Assembly: GCA_030530315.1 (NCBI GenBank)
Contig: JAUMVG010000016.1
Location: forward strand, 1 to 52,987
DNA length: 52,987 nt
Direction: 5' to 3'
Origin: Clostridia bacterium
Lineage (GTDB): Bacteria; Bacillota; Clostridia; Christensenellales; Aristaeellaceae
Of the stretch, positions 8,244 through 51,987 are shown in pieces. The position numbers and the translations under genes are program-made. The notes under the pieces were generated by a model that saw only the letters and a list, made by a program, of their open reading frames with translations, was not told the origin of the DNA and searched no databases. Position 1 is the first letter of the stretch; each line of letters opens with the position of its first letter.

Positions 8244-9194
8244 CTATTTCTCATCAAAATTGATGCGCTTCTCTTCAATCACCAGGGGCCGGTTCATCAC
8301 CCTGGTATTGATGGCCATGACATATTCTCCCATGAAGCCGAGGAAGGCCAATTGGACTCCCCCCATGAAGAAGAACGCGATCATGGTCGGCGCGTATCCC
8401 GCAGTGAACTTGTCCCAGAACAGCAGCTTGCCGATCAGATAGCCCAGGCCGATGATAAAACTGATGAAGGCCGTGAGGAATCCAAAGACCGTGGCTATTC
8501 GCAGGCCCGCCTTTGTATAGCTGGTAAAGCTGAGCATTGCGGCGTCATAAAGCGTATACCAGTTGTTGTGCGTCTTCCCGGCCCGGCGCTTGGGCTGCTC
8601 ATATTCAATCTCCTTGCGCTCCGGGCCCAGCTCCGCCACTATGCCCCGAATAAAGGGCGTAGGATCGTGCAGATCCCGCAGGGTGTTGATAAAGGACTTG
8701 TCATAGAGCCCGAACCCGGTGAACTGCTCGATCTGTTCGGTGGTGCTCATCTTTCTGATCAACTTATAGTAGCGCCCCCTCAGCCAGTACACAAAGGGGG
8801 ATTCCTTGCTTCGCGTCTTTCGCCCAATGACGATCTTGTAGCCCTCTTCCCAGGCCGCAATGAACTTGGGCAGCAGTTCAACGGGGTCCTGGAAGTCAGA
8901 GCACATGGTGATCGTGCAGTCCCCGGTCGTCTGGAGCATGGCGTGATAAGGGCTGTTGAACTGCCCAAAGTTCTTCACGTTGAAGATCGCCTTTACGTTC
9001 TTGTCCTCTTTGCAGATCTCGGTGATGATCTCGCGGGTCCTGTCGCTGCTCTTGTTGTCTATGAACAGTATCTCGTAGTTGTAGGCAGGGCACTTGCTCT
9101 TGAGCTCATCCCGCACCGCTTCGTAAATCTGCCTGGCGTTTCCCTCTTCGTTATAACACGGAAGCACGACAGAAACCGTCTTTGTGGCCGCCAT
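8244..9194 (-). CDS. GT2 glycosyltransferase, DPM1/GtrB-like, membrane anchored
   Basis: A 316-residue enzyme. The N-terminal GT-A domain carries VVLPCYNEEGNA (about residues 9-20) and a CSDFQDP acidic metal-binding motif near residue 104. Two C-terminal transmembrane helices (about 228-250 and 265-290) match polyprenyl-phosphate sugar synthases such as GtrB and DPM1. It most likely transfers a sugar from a nucleotide donor to undecaprenyl phosphate at the inner membrane face. I place the start at the ATG at 9194, with GGAGG about 9 nt upstream. It sits between the C-methyltransferase and the Gfo-like gene in the long operon. The donor sugar is unknown; a lipid-linked modified deoxysugar for a GT-C enzyme is possible. 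Confidence 0.85.
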   Translation of the reverse strand: MAATKTVSVVLPCYNEEGNARQIYEAVRDELKSKCPAYNYEILFIDNKSSDRTREIITEICKEDKNVKAIFNVKNFGQFNSPYHAMLQTTGDCTITMCSDFQDPVELLPKFIAAWEEGYKIVIGRKTRSKESPFVYWLRGRYYKLIRKMSTTEQIEQFTGFGLYDKSFINTLRDLHDPTPFIRGIVAELGPERKEIEYEQPKRRAGKTHNNWYTLYDAAMLSFTSYTKAGLRIATVFGFLTAFISFIIGLGYLIGKLLFWDKFTAGYAPTMIAFFFMGGVQLAFLGFMGEYVMAINTRVMNRPLVIEEKRINFDEK

Positions 9195-9240
9195 AATCGT
9201 TATCCTCCATCCATCTGTGTCCTTGTGCGCGCGCTCTTCT

Positions 9241-10383
9241 TTACTCCGAGTAAAGCTCAATAGACGCGGAACGAAGCACGGCTATCTCCACAGCATCGCC
9301 GTACCGCGTGCGGATCGTCTTCGCAATTTCGTCGGTATAGCCCGGAGCGATTATCAGGATGCAATCCACAGCGTGATCAAAGAAGTAGTCCGGGGAGACG
9401 ACCGGGAGATGCGACGCAGGCGCAAACCGTCCCTGCTTAAAGGGGGCCGAATCGATGATATAGCTCACCTTGTCCGCCACATCCGTTGTTGAGATCGCCG
9501 TAAAGCCCTGGTGGCTGGCTCCCCACACGGCAACCTTTTTCCCGAGCCCGATGCGCTGATCCAGGAAAGCCTGCATCTGAGCGGACAGCAGGTCAAAGTT
9601 GTTTCGCAGCCCGGCGACATCCACCTTCCGGCGCTTTTGAACGATCATCGCATGGGTATCCCGATTCAGCCGGGTGCACTCCAACACGATGAATCCATTC
9701 TTGTTTACGAGGTAGCGCAGCGTTTCCTCCGAATAGTTCGCGATATGATCCCGAAGCAGTTCATAGAAGCTGGCATTTTCAAGGATATACTCCAGGCTTG
9801 GAACGGTGATCAGTCCGTAGCCATCGTCCGTAAGATTATTGTAGATGCACCGCAGCATGGCGTTGGGGTCAGGCTGGTGCTCCAAAAAGTTAAACGAAAG
9901 AAACGCGTCGTACGGCGCACCGCTCAACTCTGTCTCCGCGGTTTCCGTGAAGGCTTTCCAGACATTCAACCCCTTGGCGCGCGCCTTCTCGACGAGCGCC
10001 TCGCTGTGTTCGATGCCGAACCCCTGGACGGGAAACTCGCCGAGCACCTGCAGAAACTCACCCTGGCCGCATCCGATTTCTATGATTTTCTTGCCTTCCA
10101 GGCCGCAGGACTCTATAAAATGCTTGTACTGATCCCGCCGCAGCTGGGTCATCGTCGAGCTGAACCCGCCCGCACGAATGACGTCCCGATAGTAGTCCAC
10201 GGGTTCGCAGTCAAACTGGACAAGGCCGCAGCCCGAGCACTGGCACAGCTGCAGATCGACCGGCCGGTCGTCGTCGACCTCCTCTTTTGTGAGGATATAT
10301 TGCGCGCCTCTGGGCATTCCGGAGATCCGCATCAGGTGCGTGCGTTCATCCAATTCCTTCCCGCAAACAATACACTTATGCAT
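9241..10383 (-). CDS. Sugar-nucleotide C-methyltransferase (TylC3/NovU type)
   Basis: A 380-residue SAM-dependent enzyme with three parts typical of deoxysugar C-methyltransferases. An N-terminal zinc-binding segment has Cys pairs (CIVCG at 4-8 and CQCSGCG near 47-53). A Rossmann methyltransferase core carries IIEIGCGQGEFL at about residues 100-111. The C-terminal C-methyltransferase domain contains VAVWGASHQG near residue 285. Family members methylate carbon 3 or another ring carbon of an NDP-4-keto-deoxyhexose. In this operon the likely substrate is a CDP-linked 4-keto-deoxysugar, but that is inferred. It overlaps the upstream SDR gene by 8 bp, so translation is probably coupled. Confidence 0.87.
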   Translation of the reverse strand: MHKCIVCGKELDERTHLMRISGMPRGAQYILTKEEVDDDRPVDLQLCQCSGCGLVQFDCEPVDYYRDVIRAGGFSSTMTQLRRDQYKHFIESCGLEGKKIIEIGCGQGEFLQVLGEFPVQGFGIEHSEALVEKARAKGLNVWKAFTETAETELSGAPYDAFLSFNFLEHQPDPNAMLRCIYNNLTDDGYGLITVPSLEYILENASFYELLRDHIANYSEETLRYLVNKNGFIVLECTRLNRDTHAMIVQKRRKVDVAGLRNNFDLLSAQMQAFLDQRIGLGKKVAVWGASHQGFTAISTTDVADKVSYIIDSAPFKQGRFAPASHLPVVSPDYFFDHAVDCILIIAPGYTDEIAKTIRTRYGDAVEIAVLRSASIELYSE

Positions 10384-43762: not shown

Positions 43763-45070
43763 ATTTCAATCCACTCGCCCCGTGCGGGGCGAGACGGCGA
43801 CGATACTAAAGTTGCGTCCACAAAGATAAATTTCAATCCACTCGCCCCGTGCGGGGCGAGACCGGCGACCATGCTGGACGGCACGACCGCGTTGAAATTT
43901 CAATCCACTCGCCCCGTGCGGGGCGAGACGGCGACGATACTAAAGTTGCGTCCACAAAGATAAATTTCAATCCACTCGCCCCGTGCGGGGCGAGACATGA
44001 CGGAGCGCTCGATCCGCTATAAATCGTCTATTTCAATCCACTCGCCCCGTGCGGGGCGAGACATACGCCGTTGATGGTCAAACCGTGATCCTGCTGATTT
44101 CAATCCACTCGCCCCGTGCGGGGCGAGACCGCAGCGCGATCAAGCGCCGGTTGATCCCGTATATTTCAATCCACTCGCCCCGTGCGGGGCGAGACTGGTT
44201 CCGGACGCCGCTATTACGATGGCGAGAAGATTTCAATCCACTCGCCCCGTGCGGGGCGAGACACTCAATGCCGTTAGTGGTATTATCGGATTTAAGCATT
44301 TCAATCCACTCGCCCCGTGCGGGGCGAGACGATGGCAAGCCTGACGGCGACTGGTACATCATCATTTCAATCCACTCGCCCCGTGCGGGGCGAGACGCCG
44401 CAGTTCCGGCACCTTGGTCGCACCCGGTATATTTCAATCCACTCGCCCCGTGCGGGGCGAGACGCAGGAGCCACGAGTGATGACGCTGGAGGAGGTCAAG
44501 AATTTCAATCCACTCGCCCCGTGCGGGGCGAGACCCTGGCCGCTGCCGATCTGCGTGGCGGCCTGCGCGATTTCAATCCACTCGCCCCGTGCGGGGCGAG
44601 ACGCGGCCTAATTGCGGACGGCATTAACGGCGCGTTTATTTCAATCCACTCGCCCCGTGCGGGGCGAGACGTGAGATCGGTAAAGTAGTTGGGATAGATG
44701 GTAATTTCAATCCACTCGCCCCGTGCGGGGCGAGACAGCCGGGAAGGGTGCTATGCATGGATTGCCAGCAATTTCAATCCACTCGCCCCGTGCGGGGCGA
44801 GACTGGACAGGCCGAGGAGGACAAGGCTCTGGTACGATTTCAATCCACTCGCCCCGTGCGGGGCGAGACAACTGCGCAAGCGTTATCCAGACTTCCCCGC
44901 CGTATTTCAATCCACTCGCCCCGTGCGGGGCGAGACGCAAAAGATTTTTATCGCGTGCGTGGCAGATAGAATTTCAATCCACTCGCCCCGTGCGGGGCGA
45001 GACACCCTTGACCCGCTTTAGCTGCCCGACTGAGGCAATTTCAATCCACTCGCCCCGTGCGGGGCGAGAC
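43763..45070 (-). CRISPR. Type I-C CRISPR array, 20 repeats and 19 spacers
   Basis: Twenty 33-bp repeats, all identical, begin at 43763, 43830, 43897, 43964, 44030, 44097, 44163, 44230, 44298, 44364, 44431, 44502, 44570, 44638, 44704, 44771, 44837, 44904, 44971 and 45038. In the transcribed (minus) direction each starts GTCTCGCCCC and ends GTGGATTGAAAT, with an internal palindrome, as in type I-C arrays. Spacers are 33-35 bp except number 11 (38 bp). Spacers 1 (43796-43829) and 3 (43930-43963) are identical. The leader lies on the right, next to cas2, so the newest units are at 45 kb and the oldest at 43.8 kb. The last repeat at the old end shows no decay. No spacer was seen to match the rest of the window by eye. 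Confidence 0.97.
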
Positions 45071-45243
45071 AGCAATTATGCCTAAGCAACGTATGATCAT
45101 TTAGGCATAAATGCACATATAACCTCTATATCTTATCCTAAAGCAAGTGGAAATAAACAGCAATGCAGCTTAGATCCTCGCTTGCTGCTCTCATTATCTG
45201 GTGCGAACCAGCCAGAGAAAGCATGATTGCTTCACGTTCGCAC
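45071..45243 (-). promoter_or_regulatory. CRISPR leader
   Basis: An AT-rich stretch between cas2 and the first leader-side repeat. Perfect 10-bp inverted arms (TTATGCCTAA at 45076-45085 and TTAGGCATAA at 45101-45110) lie within 40 bp of the repeat. A second small stem (CTGGT/ACCAG) lies near 45200-45213. Several weak promoter-like pairs are present on the minus strand (for example TTGCTG, 17 bp, TAGGAT), and I cannot choose between them. Confidence 0.75.
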
Positions 45244-45534
45244 TCAGATCATCAACACCTCCTCCGGCGAATAGCTCCGCTTTGCACCTATGTGTTCCAC
45301 TTTGTTCTGATACTTGTTTCCCAGTTCGTAAAACCGGAGGCTGTCCGATTTCTCATCAATGATCTGCGTCAGTTCCGCCTTCAGTATACGGTATTGGGTC
45401 TCGTCCAGTAGGCATTCAAAAACCGAGTTCTGCACCCTCTGACCTCGTGCCACACACTTCTTCGCCACATTCCTCAGCCGCCGTTTTCCGTCGGCATTCG
45501 TGGTATTTACATCATATGTAACCAATACGAGCAT
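45244..45534 (-). CDS. cas2: CRISPR-associated endoribonuclease Cas2
   Basis: A 96-residue Cas2 protein, usual length. MLVLVTYDVNTTNADGKRR starts with the beta strand and the conserved Asp (YDV), and FECLLDETQYRILK and GNKYQNKVEHIG are typical of type I-C Cas2. It forms the adaptation complex with Cas1, bridging two Cas1 dimers. It begins 4 bp after the cas1 stop, with GGAAGTGATG ahead of the ATG. If Cas1 is impaired by the deletion described at its start, Cas2 would have no adaptation role. Confidence 0.95.
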   Translation of the reverse strand: MLVLVTYDVNTTNADGKRRLRNVAKKCVARGQRVQNSVFECLLDETQYRILKAELTQIIDEKSDSLRFYELGNKYQNKVEHIGAKRSYSPEEVLMI

Positions 45535-45538
45535 ATCA

Positions 45539-46516
45539 TCACTTCCACAAGAACGGCGGATAGCCGTCCAAATCACCACGCAGGTATCTTGCCAACAGTA
45601 ACGCCTGTACATATGGCACAAGCCCCCAATAGATCTTTTCCTTCAGGTACGGATGCGTCAGGGTTTCCCGCTTGCGCTCCTGCCATGCGCTCAGGAACAC
45701 CTTGCGGCCCTCATCATTCAACAGCACCGCGCTGTTTGCCTGCCTGCAGAAGTGCCTTACCTGAATTGCACGCGTGTTGATAAGTGTCAACGCCATGCGA
45801 TCTGCCATGGGGCCTCGCAGTTCTTCCATCAAATCCAAACTCAAGGAGGCGCGACCAGGGCGATCCCGATGCAAGAAGCCCACGTAAGAATCCAATCCTA
45901 CGCTTTCCAGGGCCGCGCCACAATCATTTGCCAGTATCGTGTAGGCAAATGACAAGAGTGCATTGATATTGTCCATCGGCGGACGGCGATTCCTGTCCTG
46001 AAAGCAAAAATCCTCTTTCTGATTCAGGATCATCTGATCGAATGCGCCAAAATAGCGGGACGACGCTTCTCCCTCCAGCCCACGGAGCACATCCAAATCC
46101 GTTGCTTCGGCAATCGCAGGAAGTTGATCTGCCATCTGCCTTGATATGCGCTTCAGTTCGTCGGTTTCCACGCGCATGGAGTGATCCCGCACGGTCCGCT
46201 CAATCATCCAACGGGTGTTATAGACTTTGCCGAAGACAAAGTTCCGGGCGATCATGCAACTCTGTTCCGTATCATCAGAGATGCGATACTGCCGTTTGCG
46301 CAGTAACACATTGCCCCGGTCTTCCCCGCATGTTCTCGCCAGAAAACGGCCATTTGGCGTCATGAAGCACAACTGCACGCCCCGCTTTGCGCATGCGCCC
46401 ATCAAAGCGGGCGACGCCCCCTTGTAGTTGAAGCATACAATGCCTTCCAGAATCGACAGAGGAAATTGCCCCTTTTTCTCTTCGCCATTCAGCACCACTA
46501 CGTTTTCGTTTTCCAA
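45539..46516 (-). CDS. cas1: CRISPR integrase Cas1, N-terminus missing
   Basis: A 325-residue frame of type I-C Cas1. The catalytic residues are present: Glu in [14 protein letters not shown], His in [11 protein letters not shown], and the acidic SLDLMEELR. The frame begins abruptly at a TTG in the sequence [11 protein letters not shown]. Family members have about 20 more residues before this point (of the form MKKLLNTLYVTTP..YLAL), and QYLA can still be read just upstream, but then the frame meets a stop after 13 codons with no ATG or GTG and no ribosome binding site. The start is thus lost, apparently in the same event that removed cas4. The protein may not be made, or may be made poorly from TTG, and would lack its first beta strands. 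Confidence 0.88.
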
Positions 46517-47337
46517 TGCCAGATACTGGAGGCTGCACGGCGTACCTTCACGATGTCAAACAGCTTATGGGCCGGAGCATTGCCGAGTTCGCTATCGTGC
46601 TTGAACACGATCAGTTCCCGTACAGCCATCTTCCCCCGCGCCGCAGAACGATCGTTTTCAAACATGTTGATGATCGCCTGCCAAAGCAGGGCGAGATCGT
46701 CCTCGCTGAAACCCGTTACCTTCCGCGCAAGGTTTGCGGAAACAAATCCCTCTGCGCGATAGAGGCCATAGGGTACAATGTACTTTCGACCCATCTCAGT
46801 CCCCTTGTTCTCGGCATCTGCCTCCGTGGTGATGGCGACACGGGTAATTGTCACTTCCTGGGGGATGATGGGGTCAACGCTCTTTGCAAAGCCCAGCTGC
46901 ACAGGGCCGCGCACCTGGCCACAATTCAAATTTGCCTTCACAAAGGTCGTCATCACCGCGCCAAAGGTACGTACATCATAGAAGTTTCGGCACATAAAGT
47001 CCCTCAGCTTCATGTCCAGTTCCGGATCTTCCTTTTTCGCCTTCTTCAGGGCCTTTTCGTCGTCAGGATCCAGGTTGACATACTGAACGGCACTCTTATC
47101 CATGCGGTTCAGCGGCACCTTTCCCTGGATGTAAATCTGATAATTGGGATCGCCTTCCTTTACCATCTGCACATAGTTGCGAATCTTGCGCTTCAGGCAG
47201 ACGTCCGTTACCAGCCCGAGGCCGGTCTCCGGGTCTATGCGGGGCATGTTGCCCGCATCGGGGTCGCCGTTGGGATTGCCGTTCTCCACATCAAAAAGGA
47301 TCACAAAATCATAGCGGTTGCGAATGGCTTCGGACAT
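46498..47337 (-). CDS. cas7: Type I-C Cascade backbone Cas7 (Csd2), altered C-terminus
   Basis: A 279-residue Cas7 protein that coats the crRNA in type I-C Cascade. [58 protein letters not shown] and [21 protein letters not shown] are all family signatures. After KVRR the sequence turns into [12 protein letters not shown] and stops; these codons are the cas1 region read in another frame. Related proteins continue about 25 residues in a different way, so the tail appears to have been cut by a deletion. The core RNA-binding parts are intact, and interference may still work. AGGAGGAG precedes the ATG. Confidence 0.93.
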
Positions 47338-47338
47338 C

Positions 47339-49087
47339 TTATTTCTCCTCCTTCTTCATATAGCGGGTCTGCACCTGATAGTAGTAGCCAAGCTGGAAAA
47401 TGCCCTGATCATACAGGCTCAGGCGAGTGGGATAGTCTGCATTGAAACGGCAGAGGATATCCCCCAGTTGCCTGTTGTAGTAAACCGCCAGACCTCCGTC
47501 CAGTTTCTTCAGGTGCGCCTGCGCCAGCTTGATCAGCTGTGGAAATACAATACTGGGCGTGGCGCATGCAGAATTGAAGTAGCGGTCCCGAATGGTCGCG
47601 TTGATGCCGGGATTGGCAGCCTGTTGCAAGCCCTCCAGCACGGCAAATAGCCGCCCCAGCAAATAGGGTTGGTAATTGGTGTTCTCGTTCAGTTCCACTT
47701 CCAGCGCCTCCTTGTATTGATCAAATTTATCCGAGCCCCTTGTATTCCTCAGCAGAAAGGCCTTGATGATCGCCGCCCGTCCCCGCGTTATTCGGTGTTC
47801 AGCGCGTATACGCAGTTCTACCTGCTCCAGCAGCAGCACGGGATATGGAAGCCCCTGCAGCACCGAGCGAACAAGCGCGCCGGAGAGCAGCGGTGATGGC
47901 GATTTGTCGCGGGACTTTTGATTCACTGTTTCGTCCAGCATCTGCCGGAAGGAGAGTACCGATCGCATGTCAAAATCAGGCTTCACGATGCGCATGCGTT
48001 CATGGTGCGCCGCGAGGTTCTTCGCAAAATCGCCAAAGGTATTTTGCAGGAAGAAGCGCACTGCCAACCTCGCCGCATTCGGCGAAAGTCCAAGGACATA
48101 GAAGTGCTCATCAGGGCTCAAATCACTTTCCCGCCAGGTTACATTGCGCCCGGCAGCCAATCCCTTCAATGCGTCAAACAGGTCGTCATCTGTCAGTGCC
48201 GCGTCTTCGCCGAACATTGCGGCAAAACAGGCCGCATAGCCGTCGTTCCCGCTTTCCGCCCAGAATACAATGGTGGCGTCACTCAGGCGGAGATGGTGCC
48301 CCTGCTCTGCGATCATGTAGTTCAGCGCAGCGCTGTAGGCGAAAGCAGCCCTTTCACTGACCGGGGCGTTCAAGCCCTGTCCTCCGTCGCGACCAAAGGA
48401 TTCAAACGCCGGAGCGTTGAAACCCACCAACGTCGTGCCCATCGGCTGGCCGCCCGCCACGCCCCTGATGCTCGGGTGAATGCGCGCCGGTATCCCTTCC
48501 TCACCCGTCACAAGGCAACGCATGGTCCGACCATCGCCTGTGTTGTTATAGTGATCGTCCCAGGCTTGCTGGACCTCCGTCCAGTTTTCAACATCGCTTT
48601 GCCCGTAGGCAAAGGTGATATTGGCCCCGCCCAGCAGATCATCCATAAACGGCGCAAGCAATTCACAGTCCCTGGCGGCCTGCGGCTGCCAGCTTTCAAA
48701 GAATCGACATATGGCGCGTGCCGGAGCGCTGTCCACAGCTTTAAGCAGTTCAATGTGCAAGTCTCGACACGCTTCAAAACATTTGACGGTGCGTTCCGGC
48801 TTTCCCTTGTTGTCCAGCCCCAGGATATAGGTTGAGTTGTCGCAGAGGAAATTGGAAACAATACCAACGGAGCGTTTTACCTGCGCGGGCAGGTTCATCG
48901 CCATGGGCACCATCACCTTTTTCTTGCCTCGTTCAACCTCTATCATCCGCGGAAGCACATGCACCAGCTGTCCTTCATCATTGATTTGCAGGGCATAGGA
49001 AACCTTCACCGGCTGCCAGCCGGGTCTCTCCAACTTGCCGTCCCGAACCAAGCGGTCGTAATACCGATTGAGCGATTGCAGGATCAT
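47339..49087 (-). CDS. cas8c: Type I-C Cascade large subunit Cas8c (Csd1)
   Basis: A 582-residue Cas8c protein, the PAM-reading large subunit. It begins [13 protein letters not shown], the usual Csd1 start, and shows [18 protein letters not shown] and [17 protein letters not shown], which are typical of the family. The ATG at 49087 overlaps the cas5c stop (ATGA). Only one base separates its stop from the cas7 start, so the Cascade genes are tightly coupled. Type I-C operons also make a small subunit from an internal start in cas8c; I did not identify that start here. Confidence 0.94.
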
Positions 49088-49740
49088 CGAACCACCTCGC
49101 AATTCGAGACATCCACAACGCCATTTTGCATTTGAGCGCGGAAGAACATGGGCGCGATATCGTTCAGGTCCGAGTAATCCATGTCGTACAGCATCCATCC
49201 CAGATCCCGGGATTCCGGGATCGTCGGGATCTCCCCATTCTCCCACAGGGCAAAATGTGCGGAACATTCCCGACAGCCGAGGTATGGTTGGGCAAAAGCC
49301 TGACCCCGACGAAGCCGACGCTTGATAATGTCCTGGAATTTCCCTGGGTTGTCGGAAGGCGCCGCACGATCCGTCATTTCAAAATGAGCTTCAATGACGT
49401 AATGCACATCCTTCAGCATCAACGACGCCCTCTGCTGGATATGCTCCGATGTTGCGAGATACAGCGGTTTAATGCCACCCTGCGCAACGGAGCGTAGATC
49501 AGATGCCAGTATCTTGGCGTCCACTTCATTGCGACGAAGGTTGGTAAAGCGTATGGGGTTCAGTATGTAGATTTTGTCAACCTTCCACACGAGGCCTGGA
49601 TGATAATAGATCGCCTCCAGCATCCCTCGCGCCGCGCTGGGCGTCGGAATATCATAGGAAACGCGTTCCACTTTCATCTCTGGTCTGGTGAAGAGCGCAT
49701 AATCTCCCCATACCTCCATCTTTACGGACAAGCTGTTCAC
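49084..49740 (-). CDS. cas5c: Type I-C Cas5c, crRNA-processing Cascade subunit
   Basis: A 218-residue Cas5c. KMEVWGDYALFTRPEMKVERVSYDIPTPSAARGMLEAIYY contains the family core, seen here as VWGDYALF and PSAARGMLEAIY. In type I-C this subunit replaces Cas6 and cuts the pre-crRNA repeat, and the absence of a cas6 gene in the operon agrees. The start is GTG at 49740, with AAAGGAAGT just before it; the spacing is short, so an ATG at 49719 is possible. It is followed by cas8c with a 4-bp overlap. A gap of 105 bp separates it from cas3. Confidence 0.93.
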   Translation of the reverse strand: MNSLSVKMEVWGDYALFTRPEMKVERVSYDIPTPSAARGMLEAIYYHPGLVWKVDKIYILNPIRFTNLRRNEVDAKILASDLRSVAQGGIKPLYLATSEHIQQRASLMLKDVHYVIEAHFEMTDRAAPSDNPGKFQDIIKRRLRRGQAFAQPYLGCRECSAHFALWENGEIPTIPESRDLGWMLYDMDYSDLNDIAPMFFRAQMQNGVVDVSNCEVVR

Positions 49741-49845: not shown

Positions 49846-51987
49846 CTAAATCCACAGCCCGCGCGCAATGTCTGACTCAATTTTCAGGCCGCACAGCGGA
49901 TCATAGGCCTCTGAATCCGCCAGGATACCACAGTTACCCGCTACAACTTCAATCATGCCGGCATCAACCAGCTTCTCCCAATCCCAGGGATAGACACTGA
50001 CTGCGCTTCGACCCAATCGCCGCATCAAACTGCGGCTGAACATTCCCTTCCGCAGCTGTTCAATGTCATCCGCATTCTCTTCGGTCGGAATATAGATTGT
50101 CCGTGTATCCGATTCAATCATGTGAAAGGACTCAGCGATGGATTTCATCTTCATCTGAGCGCACATCTCCAATATATGCCTGTCATCGAGCGATTGGTCA
50201 CCTCTCTGCCAGTACAGCTGTTCAAAATAACGACGAATCGTAGTGCTGTCATCGAGATGCCATGAACCCTCCATTGCAATCTGTGCAGCCGCAGCATTGG
50301 GCTGAATCCCCTTTGGCACCCCTCTTTGCAGTGTGAAGACGACCACTTCACTCTCATCAGCAGTATGACGGCCCTCGCGATTGCAACGCCCAGCCGCCTG
50401 CAATATCGAATCCAACCCAGCCATCTCCCGCCAGACCTCAGGAAAGTCCACGTCCACTCCGGCTTCAATCAGGCTGGTAGAGACCACACGGCATTCTTCA
50501 CCATCATGCAGCCTTTGCCGGATTTCATCTAGTGTCTTTGAACGATGATCCGGTGTCATACGCGTGGAAAGATGAAAACTGCCTTGCTTAGGCAACAGGG
50601 AAAACACTTCCTGAGCATCTTTACGCGTGTTTACGATACAAAGAACCGTCCTGCGTTTGACCAATTCGCTCGCCAATTCAGAGGTGTTCGTGTTTCTTTT
50701 CTGCTTATAATGCACTCGGCGAAAAAAAACCTGATGCTCTTTCACATCATTGCAAATCTCTGATGGGATCAGATCCTGTTGATACTCAGTAAAGAACCGA
50801 TTCAAGGCGGGCTGTGTCGCCGTGCACAATACCGCCGTCGTATGATAATGGCTTACCAATTCCGCAATTGTCGATACGCAGGGTTTCAGATATGGCAGGG
50901 GCATCATCTGCGCTTCATCAAAAACAATAACGCTGTTGGCAATGCTATGGAGTTTTCTGCACCTTGAGGGTTTATTTGAGAAAAGCGACTCAAAAAACTG
51001 TACCGCTGTCGTTACAATCACCGGCGCATCCCAGTTTTCAGTCGCAAGCATTCGACGCAAGGCGTCCGGTGTTTCCATATCCTCATTTTCATCGCAGGCT
51101 ATGCCGGAATGATGTTCAATGACATTCTCCTCGCCCAATATTGATTTAAAAACAGCGGCGTTCTGCTCAATAATGCTTGTATAAGGAATGACATAGATGA
51201 CCCGATCCAGACTATGTTTTACTGCATGGGTCAACGCAAATGCCAGCGAAGAAACTGTCTTGCCTCCCCCGGTCGGAACTGTCAGTGTATATAGCCCATG
51301 ATCATTTTCACCATTATTAATACAATCGCGAAGAATTGCGCAACGCCGACGGTTGATCTCTGTCTCGGGGGCCTCTAACCACGGTTGGATATGCTTTCGC
51401 AATTTATTCAGCAGCACATCCATGCCATCGTAATCACCACGAGGCATCTCGCCTTGCATAAAGCGTTCAGTATCAAGGAAATCTGCATCCACCAAGCAGG
51501 AGAAGATCATTCGAGTGTAAAACTGAGGCGCAAAGCTCGTTTTCATTATCCACTGCGGCAGCAGCATCGACTGGTCTATATTATTCTCCTGCCAAAATGG
51601 TGAATAATCCAAATTGCCAGACAAATCCTTACACATGCGACCAAAAAGCGTGCCGTCTCCCTCGGAAGCCATCCTACGGCTTCCCAAATCTGGCATGCCT
51701 CCATGGTGACCCGCAATGGCAATCGCTCCCGAGCCGTCCTTACACCGGTTCCAGGCTATCATGGCACCTGCCGTGGAATGATCTACTTTGGGTGTATGCT
51801 CCGGATCCGCCATACGTCTTTGTGCTGCTCTGCTGTATTTCCCTGCATCATGCAGAATACCAACGCGCTGTGCATGGAACTCTGCGTCAAATCGTTCTGC
51901 AAATTTCCCCGCCAGTTCAGCTACATCCAACAAATGTTCTCTTAACGGCTGAATTGTTCCGTCTTTTTTCCTGTGGCCAATATACAC
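49846..51987 (-). CDS. cas3: CRISPR helicase-nuclease Cas3
   Basis: A 713-residue Cas3 with an N-terminal HD nuclease and a DExD/H helicase. HD residues include H18, the pair H46-D47 (ILHDAGKYS) and GHHGG near 93-97. Walker A is PTGGGKT (238-244), the DEAD-type box is DEAQ (357-360), ATQPA follows as motif III, and QAAGRCNREG is motif VI. Cascade recruits it to unwind and degrade target DNA. It starts at GTG 51987 with AAAGGAG 9 nt upstream. It is the first gene of the cas operon, and all key residues are present, so the interference nuclease appears functional. Confidence 0.95.
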   Translation of the reverse strand: MYIGHRKKDGTIQPLREHLLDVAELAGKFAERFDAEFHAQRVGILHDAGKYSRAAQRRMADPEHTPKVDHSTAGAMIAWNRCKDGSGAIAIAGHHGGMPDLGSRRMASEGDGTLFGRMCKDLSGNLDYSPFWQENNIDQSMLLPQWIMKTSFAPQFYTRMIFSCLVDADFLDTERFMQGEMPRGDYDGMDVLLNKLRKHIQPWLEAPETEINRRRCAILRDCINNGENDHGLYTLTVPTGGGKTVSSLAFALTHAVKHSLDRVIYVIPYTSIIEQNAAVFKSILGEENVIEHHSGIACDENEDMETPDALRRMLATENWDAPVIVTTAVQFFESLFSNKPSRCRKLHSIANSVIVFDEAQMMPLPYLKPCVSTIAELVSHYHTTAVLCTATQPALNRFFTEYQQDLIPSEICNDVKEHQVFFRRVHYKQKRNTNTSELASELVKRRTVLCIVNTRKDAQEVFSLLPKQGSFHLSTRMTPDHRSKTLDEIRQRLHDGEECRVVSTSLIEAGVDVDFPEVWREMAGLDSILQAAGRCNREGRHTADESEVVVFTLQRGVPKGIQPNAAAAQIAMEGSWHLDDSTTIRRYFEQLYWQRGDQSLDDRHILEMCAQMKMKSIAESFHMIESDTRTIYIPTEENADDIEQLRKGMFSRSLMRRLGRSAVSVYPWDWEKLVDAGMIEVVAGNCGILADSEAYDPLCGLKIESDIARGLWI

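Follow-up and report, generated by a model that had tools for sequence, protein, structure and literature searches.

We have found that a type I-C CRISPR-Cas operon in a Clostridia bacterium has lost cas4, together with the adjoining ends of cas7 and cas1, as is confirmed at the level of sequence by comparison with an intact operon from the same genus; one deletion of ~0.8 kb is well supported as the cause. The operon lies on the minus strand of the window, by which we mean the whole stretch of 52,987 nucleotides that was analysed; the window is a complete contig (G000:C74) of a genome in 144 contigs, with an estimated completeness of 94% and contamination of 6.1%. It is probable that this was an ordinary type I-C operon that suffered a recent internal deletion of ~0.8 kb, which begins close to the 3′ end of cas7 and reaches codon 15/16 of cas1. 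The locus itself is a damaged form of a known system, and its interest is the repeated pattern around it.

A cas7-cas1 junction in place of cas4

In the window cas3, cas5c, cas8c and cas2 are full-length open frames, all on the minus strand, and a leader and an array are present. The cas3 gene (49846..51987), which encodes an HD nuclease and helicase, is complete, matches TIGR01587 and TIGR01596 and aligns with residues 1-712 of 712 of the sister protein; cas5c (49084..49740) is also complete (TIGR01876 positions 1-197 of 203; sister residues 1-218 of 218), as are cas8c (Csd1; 47339..49087; TIGR01863 positions 1-587 of 588) and cas2 (45244..45534; 96 amino acids; TIGR01573 positions 1-94 of 96). 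The full-length match of Cas8c to TIGR01863, at 435 bits, is the type I-C signature; in the profile search Cas5c, Cas7 and Cas1 also matched I-C models, and Cas2 and Cas3 matched general ones. Cas5c, Cas7 (Csd2) and Cas3 are encoded in one operon, as expected of type I-C, with Cas7 covering only positions 1-255 of 284 of TIGR02589. The adaptation module departs from type I-C in that cas7 leads directly into cas1, with no cas4, and in that the start of Cas1 is lost, Cas2 being complete. Type I-C arrays have hairpin repeats of ~33 nt and adjoin cas2. Here a leader element (GTGCGAA-N29-TTCGCAC; 45201..45243, minus strand) that is conserved in the family stands directly after cas2, and the array (43763..45070, minus strand) holds 20 identical 33-nt repeats and 19 spacers.

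The nearest relative found to carry the operon is a genome of the same genus (G014), in which the order is cas3-cas5-cas8-cas7-cas4-cas1-cas2-array, so that the intact cas7-cas4-cas1 arrangement does exist in a sister genome. By blastn, the window follows the sister DNA (L050) with 82% identity as far as base 8782, and alignment begins again at base 9580 with 72%; the 797 bp between (8783-9579) are replaced by 12 nt at 46526..46537 on the minus strand, a net loss of 785 bp. These 12 nt give no blastn alignment to either sister flank, and part of them may be diverged flank. Removed relative to the sister are the last 32 codons of cas7, the whole of cas4 and the first 15 codons of cas1, and gene order and strand are exactly preserved on both sides of the junction. 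Of 60 cas7 matches in 308 family genomes, 43 have a same-strand cas1 no more than 5 kb away. The two genes stand 664-753 bp apart in 41 of these pairs and 2971 bp apart in G205, where cas3 sits between them; the spacing is -4 in the window alone, and a value unique among the 43 argues that the junction is not due to chance. The short Cas1 start and the Cas7 tail, which would have told against a deletion had relatives shared them, occur in none of the other 42 pairs. The proposal made in a preliminary description of this DNA, that a single deletion of roughly 0.8 kb took cas4 and the ends of both its neighbours, is thus supported by the exchange of 797 bp for 12, by the intact relatives and by the unique spacing.

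The junction is known from one assembly of one genome of its species, and we considered whether cas4 and the gene ends were lost through collapse or chimeric joining in a draft contig. The number of contigs and the contamination of the genome are in keeping with such an artefact, as is the fact that many I-C loci of the family hit contig ends at the array. Nevertheless, we think it quite unlikely. Breakpoint flanks of ~200 bp have no exact match longer than 7 nt in G014 or 8 nt in G318, another relative, and since these lengths are far below usual assembly word lengths a collapse is not to be expected; moreover, no alignment joins the 12 junction nucleotides to either flank, gene order and strand are unchanged, and similar lesions are found in genomes of few contigs (G170, two contigs; G051, three contigs). 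Another reading of the junction is that of a rare strain variant. As to how a deletion could have arisen, matches of no more than 7-8 bp between the flanks in relatives suggest repair by end joining or through short microhomology.

We note that the cas7 and cas1 frames overlap, with Cas1 in the -1 frame, an arrangement from which a programmed frameshift could in principle yield a Cas7-Cas1 fusion. By inspection, though, a slippery heptamer of the form X-XXY-YYZ is absent from the zero frame, and cas7 and cas1 overlap in no other family pair. Such a fusion was rejected because the slippery site is absent, and we regard it as extremely improbable.

Consequences for adaptation and interference

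The absence of cas4, noted in the preliminary description for the locus, extends to the whole genome: PF01930 has no match in either, and the same model detects the genes of G014 and G318. Nor does the genome give a second Cas1 match besides the truncated one, using models that likewise detect the G014 and G318 genes. Homology of the window cas1 (45539..46525, minus strand; TIGR03640 positions 13-340 of 340) begins at the tyrosine (codon 46525-46523) that corresponds to residue 16 of the sister and continues to the stop at 45539. Two in-frame codons are candidate starts, a TTG at 46516, from which the protein would lack 18 residues, and a GTG at 46498, from which it would lack 24; the GTG shares bases with the cas7 stop (TAGTG), which makes it a potential site of coupling. 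It had been claimed that the frame lacks its first 20 or so residues and has neither start codon nor binding site. The N-terminus is indeed missing and no ribosome-binding site is visible by eye at the TTG or the GTG, but the loss by homology is 15 residues and candidate starts exist.

The start of Cas1 is strongly conserved in the family (consensus MRKLLNTL) and is also present in the PDB relative 8d3l; it is absent from the window. All 21 other I-C Cas1 loci over the cut-off, the sister's included, have cas4 and match the sister Cas1 from residue 1. In a structure model of Cas1 (pLDDT 88), a predicted helix at residues 2-5 and a predicted strand at 7-10 fall in the lost part, and predicted strands at 15-20 and 23-28 would be hit by the candidate starts. 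The frame is open and retains E166, H234 and D246, which we take to be the catalytic residues. The claim of damaged adaptation is thus upheld by the lack of Cas4, of a second Cas1 match and of the conserved Cas1 N-terminus, and the genome, at ~94% completeness, contains no complete adaptation module. With no Cas4 for PAM-dependent processing and no normal Cas1, spacer acquisition would be dead or nearly so, and the locus probably can no longer record new infections.

A different view of the same genes is that they form a working minimal variant, in which a truncated Cas1 made by termination-reinitiation at the GTG or from the TTG supports adaptation without Cas4. An open frame with a conserved active-site region and no increase in rate would be expected of such a variant, as would the identical repeats of the window, which resemble those of intact loci, and an independent cas4-less locus (G700) has a Cas1 without ~7 residues and an array of 36 repeats. 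However, the residues lost are the strongly conserved ones of the family and of 8d3l, and a start at residue 19 or 25 would remove from the N-terminal domain the first predicted strand and all or most of the second. Furthermore, removal of cas4 reportedly reduces adaptation and yields non-functional spacers (PMC6519985). The variant had been put forward as an alternative in the preliminary description, and it finds no support in the family, where 0/42 other cas7-cas1 pairs have the architecture. A working short Cas1 is unlikely, and so is the variant as a whole.

The scar left by the deletion looks recent, because neither Cas1 nor Cas2 of the window shows acceleration and because the repeats are identical. 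On a Cas7 tree the window is placed in a group with G014 and G318, both intact loci (support 100/98). With G014 as the reference and two or three outgroups (one for cas3), relative-rate tests that included the foreign end residues of the window proteins showed none of the Cas proteins of the window to have changed in excess (14 tests, lowest p 0.29). Rough dN/dS values between the window and G014, at dS 1.0-1.7, were 0.11 for cas1, 0.16 for cas2 and 0.06-0.11 for cas5, cas7 and cas8; cas3 was saturated in this comparison. Rates, dN/dS and repeats would fit a recent loss and a still-working Cas1 alike, and these data do not separate the two.

The deletion also reached an interference gene. Window Cas7 (46498..47337, minus strand) matches the sister through residue 267 (native part 46537-47337) and then has 12 foreign residues before a TAG at 46500-46498 (tail and stop, 46498-46536). 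It had been noticed that Cas7 leaves its family sequence and ends in 12 residues of cas1 DNA in another frame, and this is the case, except that most of the tail, not all of it, is cas1 DNA. The description of the interference genes as intact is accurate for cas3, cas5c and cas8c, which are full length, but not for cas7, whose conserved C-terminal tail was removed by the same deletion. With Cas7 lacking its last 32 residues, the locus is not an interference-only system in which every interference gene is intact.

Interference may therefore have been lost as well, and it is a substantial possibility, if not one we would assume, that the whole locus is decaying and that nothing useful is frozen in it. 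The tail lost here is missing from none of the 11 other Cas7 sequences in one alignment (A2), and in a Cas7 model that is weak overall (mean pLDDT 65; last 60 residues 76-91) it contains two strands, at 280-284 and 293-298, that are predicted with high local confidence; the complex is, moreover, reported to be built from seven copies of Cas7 (PMC7684278). Against decay, cas3, cas5c and cas8c are open and full length, and some intact I-C loci have a Cas7 whose tail is shorter or divergent, the tail being short in G034 and G066b; after so recent a deletion, decay would not yet be visible. Cascade activity would depend on the importance of the tail, and interference by the window system is unproven.

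The template for crRNAs is in place, 20/20 repeats of 33 nt being identical, and crRNAs would still be producible from it; a putative frozen memory in the window is plausible. Spacers 17 and 19 from the leader, with one spacer between them at the leader-distal end of the array, are identical. The array stretch had no match among 50,697 phage records, and exact patterns of 24 nt (spacer 15) and 21 nt (spacer 11) had none among viral contigs, in a small search that tried 2 of 18 distinct spacers singly and found no target showing that the memory matters. We also note that a leader element of the form G[TC]GCGAA-N-TTCGC[AG]C, 42-43 nt long and in most cases immediately downstream of cas2, is found in 35/47 family loci in which an array was detected. 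Since 9/15 adaptation-damaged loci retain it as well, it may serve array expression rather than integration.

Damaged adaptation genes in the family and the phylum

The I-C loci of the family show many separate adaptation lesions, of which the window would be one; most leave the interference genes and the array untouched. A survey of 308 family genomes yielded 60 cas7 loci, six of which end too early to judge (G029, G066b, G317a, G197, G364 and G079b), and in 15/54 assessable loci adaptation genes are damaged, by different lesions. Apart from the window, a few cas4 codons are followed by the array in G033 and G324; cas7 is followed by leader and array in G040a and G220 and by the array in G170 and G184; a 5′ stub of cas4 is joined to cas2 in G036, G040b and G304 and to the last cas1 codons in G309; G217b has a cas1 tail and a broken cas2; G317b has a cas4 frameshift and has lost the cas1 start; cas2 is cut in G051; and G082, in which cas7 is the sole interference gene visible, has an in-frame loss of 43 residues in cas1. 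These 14 loci resemble the window in having kept the array and lost or broken cas4, cas1 or cas2, but they have different breakpoints, and no cut in cas7 was seen in any of them. The remaining 39/54 show no adaptation damage, G296, G341 and G200 among them being cut by contig ends inside cas1. In G040:C35 (L108; 7487-7834, minus strand), approximately the first 43 residues of Cas4 are fused in frame to Cas2 from residue 21, and the resulting open frame of 115 codons lies between cas7 and the array.

Damage is hardly clustered on the Cas7 tree. The label requires 11 changes (bootstrap 10-12), of which 7 are forced by well-supported branches; shuffled labels required a mean of 13.3, and 44/500 shuffles were as low. 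The tree cannot separate gain from loss, but the stubs and scars do. Breaks in interference genes were found five times among the 60 loci (cas3 in G029, G066b and G296, cas8 in G318 and cas7 in the window), so that 15/20 breaks are in adaptation genes. With targets of 1980 and 5450 bp this is above the expectation from length (p = 9e-6), a figure to be read in light of the fact that loci were found through cas7, so that lost effectors are under-counted (G316, G342 and G346 have cas1-cas2 with little or no effector), that divergent cas8 is not always alignable, that some loci are partial, and that draft errors count as breaks in a set with many draft genomes. The reverse case is seen in G316:C221 (L120), where a 3′ fragment of cas4, and then cas1 and cas2, follow cas3, and where cas5, cas8 and cas7 have no match between cas3 and the fragment. 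In 12/15 damaged loci no more than ~130 bp separate the left end of the lesion from the cas7/cas4 border, a pattern that may be due to a hotspot or to a limit set by selection on cas7.

No stops were found in the visible interference genes of the 14 other damaged loci. Substitution rates and stop counts speak for selection on the interference genes after such losses. Between G040a and G220, sister loci that lack cas4-cas1-cas2, the four interference genes have dN/dS of 0.06-0.12 at dS 0.5-0.8, and between G033 and G324 dN/dS is 0.05-0.23 at dS 0.06-0.17. Per-site divergence among the repeats is 4-5% in G170 and G217b; assuming that the array was homogeneous when the genes were lost, 10-13 interference stops would be expected under neutrality and 0 are seen; seven other damaged loci also have 0 stops, but there only 0-5.6 are expected. 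G033 (L117) and G324 (L113) belong to different genera and have near-identical adaptation-less operons (protein identity 99% for Cas7 and 94% for Cas8), with cas4 stubs that break within a few bases of each other; their similarity at the sequence level suggests horizontal transfer.

Arrays of damaged and intact loci also differ. Scored over 31 nt in arrays of at least four repeats, repeat differences average 0.45 per repeat in 14 damaged loci and 0.04 in 27 intact ones (p = 0.005). When only the first five repeats are taken, 6/14 damaged and 5/27 intact loci differ (p = 0.10; p = 0.03 as mean pairwise differences), both measures being weaker than that for the whole array. The repeat variants of G036 and G051 are arranged in blocks and could have arisen before the loss. 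Many family I-C loci run into contig ends at the array; away from contig ends, damaged arrays have 7-25 repeats (n = 10) and intact ones 19-45 (n = 7; p = 0.004), as counted by a simple script that detects 30 of the 58 repeats of G014. No spacers are shared between G040a and G220 or between G033 and G324 among the few that are visible, G324 showing three clear repeats before its contig ends; apparent shared spacers in loci with short consensus repeats were made of repeat ends and were discarded. The repeats of G040a and G220 also differ from each other, implying either independent losses or a later change of the array. Pairs that share a loss without sharing spacers count against a simple frozen memory. 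Since no match to Cas1 of any kind was found in the genomes of nine damaged loci (G033, G324, G036, G040, G220, G170, G184, G309 and G304; completeness 63-97%), acquisition in trans is unlikely in them.

Tentatively, then, type I-C systems of this family may repeatedly turn from adaptive to hard-wired through many independent deletions of cas4-cas1-cas2 with left ends grouped at the cas7/cas4 border, with cas3-cas5-cas8-cas7 and the array under purifying selection, and the window may be a very recent case that overshot into cas7.

A phylum sample of 398 genomes provided a baseline. At least 98 had a Cas7 over the cut-off, the window's genome (G000) among them, and the Cas1 search covered the best 80 of the 97 others, the 17 left out being the last by score, some as split matches. 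The best 80 contain 84 Cas7 loci, of which 74 pair with Cas1, 73 at 649-917 bp and one (G700) at 139. The ten unpaired loci are at a contig edge (G721, G597, G494b and G512b), consist of a lone cas7-like gene (G726b), are rearranged but intact (G398) or have no cas1 downstream (G661, G563, G435 and G646). Together with G700 and with G547, which has a cas1 frameshift, the last four make up the damaged set, giving 6/79 among the best 80 of 97 genomes as against 14/54 in the family (Fisher p = 0.006), the latter count omitting G051, damaged in cas2 only, and the baseline being judged without cas2. G700, of the same phylum and another family, is like the window in that codons 1-43 of cas4 run into Cas1 from about residue 8, with the start lost, and unlike it in having independent breakpoints, an intact Cas7 and 36 repeats.

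Relation to known systems

Whether bacteria profit from retaining old CRISPR memory when they no longer learn is a question for which this family offers natural replicates: separate lesions have broken adaptation in approximately one quarter of its assessable I-C loci, with interference mostly open, and intact and broken sister loci can be compared in the turnover of their arrays, in the selection that acts on interference genes and in exposure to phages. The window contributes a recent case and, in addition, a natural truncation of Cas7 and Cas1 that hints at what the lost ends do. A description of recurrent cas4-cas1-cas2 deletion in type I-C was not found in titles and abstract openings, subscription literature being mostly outside the scope of this search, and the available part of a phylogenomic study of Cas4 (PMC5704561) says nothing of cas4 loss in type I-C.

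CRISPR types and subtypes devoid of an adaptation module have been described (PMC12669027, PMC6452270), the repeats of type VII are reported to carry substitutions (PMC12669027), and the supply of adaptation machinery in trans has been discussed (PMC8092290). Like the adaptation-less systems (type VII, new type III subtypes, and VI-B using II-C machinery in trans), the window has an effector and an array without working adaptation. Those systems, however, are whole subtypes, whereas the window represents a normally complete subtype with a deletion in a single lineage and no donor Cas1 in the genome. With the canonical type I-C system (cas3-cas5c-cas8c-cas7-cas4-cas1-cas2, as in Bacillus halodurans and Desulfovibrio vulgaris) the window shares gene set, gene order and the position of the array, and its proteins have canonical relatives in 7kha and 8dej (Cas7) and 8d3l (Cas1); it differs from that system in that cas4 is absent and in that the N-terminus of Cas1 and the C-terminus of Cas7 are cut.
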